DNA of 64,000 nt from the NCBI RefSeq assembly GCF_032116555.1, contig NZ_CP134949.1, positions 3,100,001 to 3,164,000 on the forward strand, in the 5' to 3' direction. Each line of letters opens with the position of its first letter. Within the stretch, counting starts at the first letter, position 1. The translations under genes and the position numbers were made by a program. Positions 8,502 through 21,823 of the stretch are shown piece after piece. The notes below the pieces were generated by a model that was not told the origin of the DNA, made no database searches, and saw only the letters and a list, made by a program, of their open reading frames with translations. This DNA is from Halobaculum sp. XH14 (GTDB taxonomy: Archaea > Halobacteriota > Halobacteria > Halobacteriales > Haloferacaceae).

Positions 8502-9055
8502 CGGCATTCCGGTTGCGTCGTCCAGCTTTCTGTCGCGGTCGGCGCGTACCGGCGCGGACGGAGCCGCGCCGGATGCGCGCGAGGGATGAGCGAGCTTGCG
8601 AGCGAATCGGCTGTTCACGCGAGCGAAGCGAGGGTGAGTTCCGGGGAGCTTGCTCCGAGGTAAGGGAGGCGTGTGGCTGTGCGGTGCGTGGCGGGTGGGT
8701 GGGACTGAAAGGGGCCGCGGCTCCCGACGAACCCCGGACCCGTAAGCACCGTGGTTCGAGAGAGCTCCGCTCTCTCGTCATCACGAAAATCTTCGATTTT
8801 CGAACGACAGCGCGACCGAAGGGAGCGAGGAGCGCAGCGCGGTCCGCGGGAGTCGAGAGCCGCAGGGGCTTTCGAGACGGTCGAAACGACGACCGAACCA
8901 ACACCAAAACCGACACCCGCGGGAGCTTTCGAGCCGTTGCGGTCGGTGATGCCGAAACCAACCACCGCCATCCACCAACCGGCCACGACCACCCACCAAC
9001 CCGTAGCCGCAATTCCTGCCAGTTTATCACTCCGGACGAACACGCCACGGACAAG
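8502..9055. repeat. Repeat-rich intergenic region between upp and lpdA
   Basis: No gene is supported in these 554 bases. They hold a mosaic of short hairpins and dispersed repeat modules: an arm starting GTTCACGCGAGCGAAGCGAG at 8613 followed by GGAGC-TT-GCTCC (8645-8656); the GTGGGACTGAA block near 8699; hairpins GAGAGAGC/GCTCTCTC (8758-8776) and CGAAAATC/GATTTTCG (8784-8802); and two cores of the GGGGCTTTCGAG family (8865-8876 and 8931-8943). Related modules recur at 20.1-20.5, 51.7-52.1 and 56.3 kb. The lpdA promoter should lie in its last 60 bases (GTTTATCAC near 9022). Confidence 0.75.
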
Positions 9056-20572: not shown

Positions 20573-20791
20573 TCACTCTCCACCGTCACCGAGTTCCGAA
20601 ACGTCCCGCTCGGAAACCTCCTCGTCCTCGGGCAACCGATCGATGCAGTCGTAACAGAGGAAGTGCTCGGTCCCGTCCGCGAGTTCGAGCGTCAGGCCGT
20701 CCGTGCTCCCCGTCTCGAACGACCACAGGTCGCCGATGCCGCCGCCGACCCGCACCCGCCGGCCGCAGCCGTCACAGGCCTGTTTCGCCAT
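20573..20791 (-). CDS. Small zinc-ribbon (CxxC...CxxC) protein, 72 aa
   Basis: MAKQACDGCGRRVRVGGG carries the first CxxC (C6, C9) and FLCYDCIDRLPE the second (C46, C49), spaced for one zinc site; the rest is acidic. I recall it as a haloarchaeal DUF7561-type protein (unverified). TATA-like GTTTTTGTACC (minus strand, near 20815) sits about 27 nt from ATG 20791. A T5 run follows the stop directly (minus strand 20572-20568) and probably ends transcription. Role unknown, perhaps protein or RNA binding. Confidence 0.7.
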   Translation of the reverse strand: MAKQACDGCGRRVRVGGGIGDLWSFETGSTDGLTLELADGTEHFLCYDCIDRLPEDEEVSERDVSELGDGGE

Positions 20792-20866: not shown

Positions 20867-21823
20867 GTGGAGCTGAACTGCGAGGGCTGTGCGGGCTGCT
20901 GTCTCGACTGGCGGCCGCTGGGGGGCGTTCACGCGAGCGACGCGAGTGTGAACTCGGGGGATTCGTCCCCCGTAGTGCCGGACCACGAGCGTCGCGGCCG
21001 CTACCGCGCGCTGGACGCCACCTACAACCTCGTGCCGCTCACCCGCGACGAGGTCCGGGCGTTCCTCGATTCGGGCTACGGCGACGTGCTCGTCCCGCGA
21101 CTGTTCGAGTCGTTCGCGGACGACCCCGGGCGCGCGGTCACCGTCGACGGCCACGAGGTCGCGGCGATGGGCGAGCGACCGCTGTTCCTCGTGGGGCTCC
21201 GCAAACACCCCAAGCCCGTCGCGCCGTTCGGTCACGACCCCGTCTGGCTCGACGCCTGCGCCTTCCTCGATCCGGAGACGCTCCAGTGTCGCGTCCACGG
21301 CGACGACCTGTACCCGGAGACCTGCGGCACCTACCCGGGTCGGAACCTCGACCTCGACCGGGAGACCGAGTGCGAGCGCGTCGAGGCCGCCCACGGCGAC
21401 CCCGGCGAGCGCCTGCAGGACCGGTCGGTGCCCGAGGACCTCCCGCCGCCCGCCTTCGGCCCGCAGGCGCTCGGCTCGACCGTGTTCGCCTACCCCGAGC
21501 CGGACGACCTCCGGGGCGTCGTCGCCCGCCTCGAGGCCGGCGAGTCGACACGCGAGGACCGCGCGCTGTTCGTCGGCGCGGCCGCGGGCTCGGCGCCGGG
21601 GATGGCCGAGGTGAACGAGGACCGGGCCGAGGAAGCCAGGGAACTGGCCCGCGACGCGGATTCGTGGGTCGGCCGCGCCGCGAGCGAGTGGGCCGCGGCG
21701 GCGGAGTCGGCGGGCGGTCCCGGCGCTTCCGCCGAGGACGCCCCCGACCCGTACCGCGTCGAGGAGGACCGCGGCGCGCCGCCGACCCCGGGCTGGGACG
21801 CGCTGTACGGGGACGGCTCCTGA
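20867..21823 (+). CDS. YkgJ-type cysteine-cluster protein with repeat-derived insertion
   Basis: A 318-residue protein of the YkgJ/Fe-S-oxidoreductase-like metal cluster family. The N-terminus MELNCEGCAGCCLDW gives C5, C8, C11 and C12, and DACAFLDPETLQCRVHG plus YPETCGTYPG supply the later Cys, as in family members that chelate Zn or Fe. Residues 21-36 (VHASDASVNSGDSSPV) come from a hairpin repeat that also occurs between genes; they separate WRPLGG from PDHERRGRYRALD. The start is GTG 20867, with TTCTTAC at about -27. The C-terminal 60 residues are Ala/Glu-rich. Biochemical role unknown. Confidence 0.82.
   Translation: MELNCEGCAGCCLDWRPLGGVHASDASVNSGDSSPVVPDHERRGRYRALDATYNLVPLTRDEVRAFLDSGYGDVLVPRLFESFADDPGRAVTVDGHEVAAMGERPLFLVGLRKHPKPVAPFGHDPVWLDACAFLDPETLQCRVHGDDLYPETCGTYPGRNLDLDRETECERVEAAHGDPGERLQDRSVPEDLPPPAFGPQALGSTVFAYPEPDDLRGVVARLEAGESTREDRALFVGAAAGSAPGMAEVNEDRAEEARELARDADSWVGRAASEWAAAAESAGGPGASAEDAPDPYRVEEDRGAPPTPGWDALYGDGS
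20927..20974. repeat. Hairpin repeat inserted in frame in the YkgJ-type gene
   Basis: Arms GTTCAC (20927-20932) and GTGAAC (20948-20953) are followed by GGGGGA-TTCG-TCCCCC (20956-20971), a perfect stem with a TTCG tetraloop. The first arm and the GCGAGCGACGCGAG core match the intergenic repeat at 8613 (GTTCACGCGAGCGAAGCGAG). The element begins on a codon boundary and spans 16 codons, leaving the frame open. Confidence 0.75.

Follow-up and report, generated by a model that had tools for sequence, protein, structure and literature searches.

The analysed stretch of Halobaculum sp. XH14 DNA (64,000 nucleotides; hereafter the window) carries a gene of the DUF7531 family (PF24375), whose 318-aa product is matched by the Pfam profile with 433.5 bits (E=5.6e-130; cut-off 27) and, from a GTG start at 20867, begins with a CxxCxxCC-like cluster of invariant cysteines (C5/C8/C11/C12). 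Directly upstream of this gene and divergent from it, a short zinc-ribbon-like ORF, with its CxxC motifs in pairs, occupies positions 20573-20791 of the minus strand. Immediately behind the cysteine cluster, codons 21-36 (in the frame from GTG at 20867) are made up of a two-hairpin sequence, GTTCACGCGAGCGACGCGAGTGTGAACTCGGGGGATTCGTCCCCCGTA (20927-20974), which lies exactly where the preliminary description had placed a hairpin repeat. A single G leaves two possible placements of the element boundary, 20927-20974 or 20928-20975. A further copy, embedded in a larger repeat, was found in an intergenic region. The features considered here are listed below, R1 being a narrow model and R3 a covariance model built from intergenic copies of other loci alone.

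20867..21823, plus strand: host gene, DUF7531 family (PF24375); identified by the Pfam match, with the start residue of homologs matching
20928..20975 (equivalently 20927-20974, codons 21-36), plus strand: inserted palindromic element of 48 bp, TTCAC...GTAG, encoding VHASDASVNSGDSSPV; R3 match with E=4.5e-9; absent in homologs
20927..20953, plus strand: hairpin I, GTTCAC (20927-20932) and GTGAAC (20948-20953) with the loop GCGAGCGACGCGAGT; fold and family covariation
20955..20972, plus strand: hairpin II, CGGGGGA-TTCG-TCCCCCG; fold and family covariation
20972..20975, plus strand: 3' end GTAG; elsewhere GTAA, GTAG, GGTG, GGCG or GGAG
8614..8663, plus strand: intergenic copy of the element (TTCACGCGAGCGAAGCGAGGGTGAGTTCCGGGGAGCTTGCTCCGAGGTAA); R1 77.4 bits, R3 60.7 bits
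8599..8683 (within 8560-8690), plus strand: larger intergenic repeat containing the 8614 copy (GCGCGAGGGATGAG ... CGAATCGGCTGGGGAGGC); repeat searches

An alignment of homologs, which had been set beforehand as the test of an insertion, revealed that the 16-residue loop is unique to this lineage. The extra residues were missing from approximately 100 haloarchaeal homologs across the class (80 loci on genome contigs and, in an overlapping set, 21 in whole genomes), including both same-genus genomes (G001 and G002) and Halobonum, and no DUF7531 protein of other genera with the same 16 residues was found among them. The junction reads RPLGG-VHASDASVNSGDSSPVV-PDHER in the window and RPLGG-APDHER in the same-genus genomes (the closest reading of the host-gene junction in DNA being GGCG|TGCCGG), and the 48-bp length difference corresponds to the element end to end. 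These alignments and the R3 match demonstrate, at the sequence level, a gain of 48 bp in the DUF7531 gene that is lineage-specific, of element length, flush and in frame, and that belongs to a family of intergenic repeats. The earlier proposal of a frame-keeping insertion that joined the protein is supported by them, while its description as recent holds for this species relative to its genus and at no finer level.

Local expansion of a variable loop, palindromic by chance, would find some ground in the loop itself, whose length varies in homologs and which contains other, unrelated extra residues in three of them (L132, L080 and L062). Nevertheless, we regard this origin as highly improbable, since a model trained on intergenic copies matches the sequence (R3, E=4.5e-9) and the length difference fits the element from one end to the other. 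The extra stretch of the L132 homolog (G029; SDPAATAARDDAEGG...), situated in the same loop, is longer and non-palindromic, which suggests that the site is generally permissive. An assembly or sequencing artefact, conceivable inasmuch as the species is represented by one genome, has an equally small probability: the assembly consists of 3 contigs with a completeness of 99.9%, the frame is intact, and analogous inserts occur at identical positions in independent genomes (PheT of G009 and G070; UDG-like protein of G036 and G152).

The host gene itself remains under purifying selection, with a dN/dS of about 0.29 between the window gene and its congeners and of 0.24 between two uninserted congeners. 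In the AlphaFold2 model of the host protein (overall pTM 0.87), pLDDT drops below 50 exactly at residues 21-35, and the insert is predicted to be a flexible loop on a protein that is ordered elsewhere.

The first half of the repeat had also been reported from the non-coding gap at 8613. A copy does exist there, but over this part (8613-8632) it is identical at only 19 of 20 positions (GCGAGCGAAGCGAG versus GCGAGCGACGCGAG in the 20927 copy), and the likeness reaches past the first half to the whole element with its second hairpin (8614-8663). Searches of the 64-kb window with R3 gave exactly two strong matches, i.e. 8613-8664 (60.7 bits, 1.5e-10) and 20927-20976 (53.4 bits, 4.5e-9), and the same model detected 12 of 12 tested in-gene copies from other genomes, none of which was in its training set. 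Members of the family are about 51 bp long (mostly 48-54 bp) and comprise hairpin I (GTTCAC ... GTGAAC around GCGAGCGA[A/C]GCGAG), to which hairpin II is joined by a short linker, and end in a short 3' segment. Of 103 copies, 95% are preceded by a G at position -1, and for this reason the limits of the element can be set only to within one base. Folded as single-stranded DNA, the window 49-mer has a z of -4.4 relative to shuffles. Covariation of both helices amounts to 0.53 versus 0.17 in shuffled alignments for 17 copies, and to 0.64 versus 0.21 for 20 intergenic copies, falling to 0.03-0.15 with slid partners, which indicates that the two hairpins are kept by compensatory changes.

This genome was searched with covariance models as well as at the pattern and DNA level. 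Within the genus, R1 identified 59, 22 and 51 copies, R2 matches are present in 25 of the 39 genomes around G009, and R3 matches were obtained in 122 of 146 genomes, representing 51 of the 58 genera of the class; the sample consists of one genome per species, and mobility is inferred from between-species comparison. Some near-identical copies have flanks in common, and part of the copy number may stem from duplication of larger repeats. The window contained no Rfam match at the gathering score, and a literature search among open-licence papers found no relevant report of archaeal in-frame palindromes or of the core sequence.

The larger intergenic repeat of 8560-8690 has about 30 occurrences per genome of the genus and carries elements. 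Its empty form, CGAATCGGCTG|GGGAGGC, was found 33 times in this genome (with at most 2 mismatches), and copies filled at the same junction are L001-L004 and L026. A second empty target site with an identical junction is CCTCCG|TGCCCGCC, and a third, from other genera, is CGCGCGAGG|GAYGAG. No target duplication is evident at element junctions compared with and without the insert, nor in the DUF7531 gene. At three loci of this genome (L273:1001-1109, L275:941-1048 and L019:1301-1411), the loop of hairpin I is split by another palindromic unit (TCGTTCGAAAATCG...GATTTTCGTGATGACG...), and a similar unit is located in the window near 8748-8812.

Copies inside genes were called by a codon-usage score on the element flanks, with an open frame through the element required. 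This score places 13 of 108 elements within coding frames, with more among 71 further elements; L473, which passed the filter only weakly, was left out of the count. In total, 18 distinct in-gene sites were recognised, i.e. the window gene and 17 in other genera. A search of the genome for other copies inside genes had been proposed in the preliminary description, in which the scope was set too low, as the family and its in-gene copies span the whole class Halobacteria. The main frame in the following list is the one encoding V-x-A-S-[DE]-A-S.

PheT site A (G009, G070): main frame
PheT site B (G030): main frame
MetY-like sulfhydrylase (G009): main frame
Family-4 uracil-DNA glycosylase-like protein (G036, G152): main frame
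Acyl-CoA synthetase loop (G025, G012): main frame
Another acyl-CoA synthetase (G039): main frame
Copper P-type ATPase (G019): main frame
DEAH helicase (G009): main frame
BirA (G019): main frame
CobJ/CbiH (G071): main frame
Unnamed protein (G101): main frame
Acetolactate synthase-like protein (G060): main frame
HisD (G146): main frame
Unnamed protein (G096): main frame
HemB (G108): main frame
Window gene DUF7531 (this genome): main frame
CxxCxxCC protein (G020, the Halobonum genome; L337:1501-1556): read from the other strand; name from sequence reading
Histidine kinases (G013, and G120 with a tandem array): read from the other strand; names from sequence reading

The array in G120 (L488:699-850) is a tandem repetition of the element with a period of 51 bp, placed on the other strand at the NAVEH motif of the histidine kinase (NAVEHGSTSPRSQAREDAVGACSDEPSLADAREDAV...). 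Six enzymes were checked for a gap opposite the insert and all six have one: it spans 17 residues in MetY and the copper ATPase (against homologs or solved structures) and, between two haloarchaea, in PheT, and is also present in acyl-CoA synthetase, HemB and HisD. At PheT site A, the G009 and G070 copies occupy an identical position, and the differences between them are matched on the two sides of each stem; the hairpins therefore seem to be constrained or renewed even within genes. By design, the through-frame filter picks in-frame copies; the filter-free test agrees with it, as no gene-breaking copy with coding on both flanks was found when the open frame was not required.

All six frames of the consensus element are open (by inspection), and yet one of them is used at 16 of the 18 distinct sites, giving the peptide V-x-A-S-[DE]-A-S..., although the motif has decayed to some extent. 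The corresponding p-value of 2.3e-10 assumes six equally likely frames and independent sites and is indicative only. The encoded peptide, mostly of 16-17 residues, is acidic and rich in Ser, Ala, Gly and Asp, a composition that likely suits halophilic proteins. The frame bias likely reflects a preference for insertion after G as the first codon base together with selection for an acidic, Ser/Gly/Ala-rich peptide, two components that are not separable here.

Ribosomes are known to hop over the byps elements of some yeast mitochondria, and the insert could likewise be left untranslated, either by such bypassing or by the use of a true start codon downstream; two stable hairpins do stand close behind the start region, and GTG codons are present downstream. 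Such an arrangement seems very unlikely to us. The frame is kept, free of stops, in every in-gene copy with coding on both sides, and this strictness disfavours bypassing, which would have no need for one dominant frame, although one dominates. A downstream start, in turn, would drop the invariant cysteine cluster.

Our main reading, to which we assign a probability of roughly 0.88, is that the 48 bp are a copy of a class-wide haloarchaeal two-hairpin mobile repeat, inserted in frame in the DUF7531 gene after the species had split from its sequenced congeners. On this view, a trans-acting activity would have copied or moved the element in the form of a folded single strand and placed it beside a G, with no target duplication evident. 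Translation would then run straight through the insert, producing an acidic disordered loop, while selection would purge copies that break genes or lie in worse frames.

In-frame, peptide-coding palindromic elements have mainly been a story of Rickettsia and Wolbachia. On balance, we lean towards the wider view that the repeats constitute an undescribed, class-wide archaeal family of protein-coding palindromic mobile elements of ~51 bp, which spread without a Y1 enzyme and have repeatedly given core enzymes of Halobacteria a similar peptide that is acidic and disordered. Such a family would account for insertions of 16-17 residues in haloarchaeal PheT, MetY, HemB, HisD, BirA and similar enzymes, and a counterpart present throughout an archaeal class, in haloarchaea amenable to genetic work, would open the movement of these elements, their survival in genes and their possible supply of new loops to test.

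As to the source of mobility, an examination of Y1_Tnp, TnpB and their flanks revealed no transposase connected with the element. Y1_Tnp (PF01797, which we take to cover RAYTs as well) was detected neither in G000-G002 nor in the carriers G030, G027, G039, G009, G040 and G011, and among 8 loci of Y1 and 2 of TnpB, R2 had no credible match, the best E being 0.19. The mobilising enzyme is probably not a Y1 transposase. The sole TnpB-like gene of this genome is L215 (G000:C1:488790-488990), a Y1 TnpA being undetected. These results speak against an origin of the element as an IS200/IS605-derived, terminal-only (PATE-like) sequence moved by a Y1 TnpA, or as a REP moved by a RAYT, either of which we consider unlikely, in spite of the near-terminal hairpins, the lack of target duplication, the preference for other repeats, the existence of 52-bp terminal-only PATEs in Haloquadratum (PMC3119063) and, for a REP, the GTAG at the end of the window copy. 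This tetranucleotide lies on the 3' side of the hairpin and varies between copies.

The two-hairpin mobile repeat described here can be compared with four known systems. Like the PATEs of Haloquadratum (PMC3119063), it is haloarchaeal, has near-terminal palindromes, lacks target duplication, is of the size of their 52-bp terminal-only forms and targets other repeats. It differs from them in having a near-constant G at -1 in place of a conserved target oligonucleotide of 4-6 bp, in that no IS605 parent or TnpA was found in many carriers, and in its in-frame in-gene copies, its striking feature. IS605/PATE parentage is not supported, given that neither ends shared with an IS605-type transposon nor a targeting oligonucleotide were found. 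With the GTAG/CGTC REPs associated with RAYT (PMC3733652) it has in common small hairpins, a mostly intergenic location with some copies in ORFs, and no coding capacity of its own, whereas here GTAG is 3'-terminal and variable and the genus is without a Y1/RAYT gene (no PF01797 in G000, G001 and G002); membership was dropped in view of the varying ends (GTAA, GTAG, GGTG, GGCG, GGAG) and the absence of RAYT. The SMRs of Haloquadratum (PMC3119063) are similarly non-coding, devoid of target duplication, preferentially inserted in other repeats and enigmatic in their mobilisation, but carry inverted repeats at their termini and exceed the present element in length (80 bp being called exceedingly short; PMC3119063), in contrast to the two internal hairpins found here, and the ends of the element, T(C/T)(C/T)..CG and CGG(T/C/A)G, are not mutually inverted, which places it outside the SMRs.

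In its way of working, the element resembles the Rickettsia palindromic elements (RPE) and other protein-coding palindromes described by Ogata et al. (2000, 2002; cited in PMC10969869 and PMC3733652), and the analogy to bacterial peptide-encoding repeats drawn in the preliminary description holds in this sense. RPE occur both within and outside genes, in frame, with a recognisable peptide and with host proteins left intact, and are ~150 bp long, compared with 48-54 bp here. In the same manner, one haloarchaeal repeat family is present in intergenic DNA and inside ORFs, its in-gene copies are in frame in otherwise conserved genes, and it has a preferred frame and a recognisable peptide (16 of 18 sites), although the preference for G at -1 may explain part of this bias. 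The element is distinguished from RPE by its two hairpins, its archaeal and class-wide occurrence and its acidic, disordered V-x-A-S-[DE]-A-S peptide, and the likeness concerns the way of working, no homology being claimed. It is classed here as an archaeal variant of protein-coding palindromic repeats, distinct from PATEs, SMRs, REPs and RPE.
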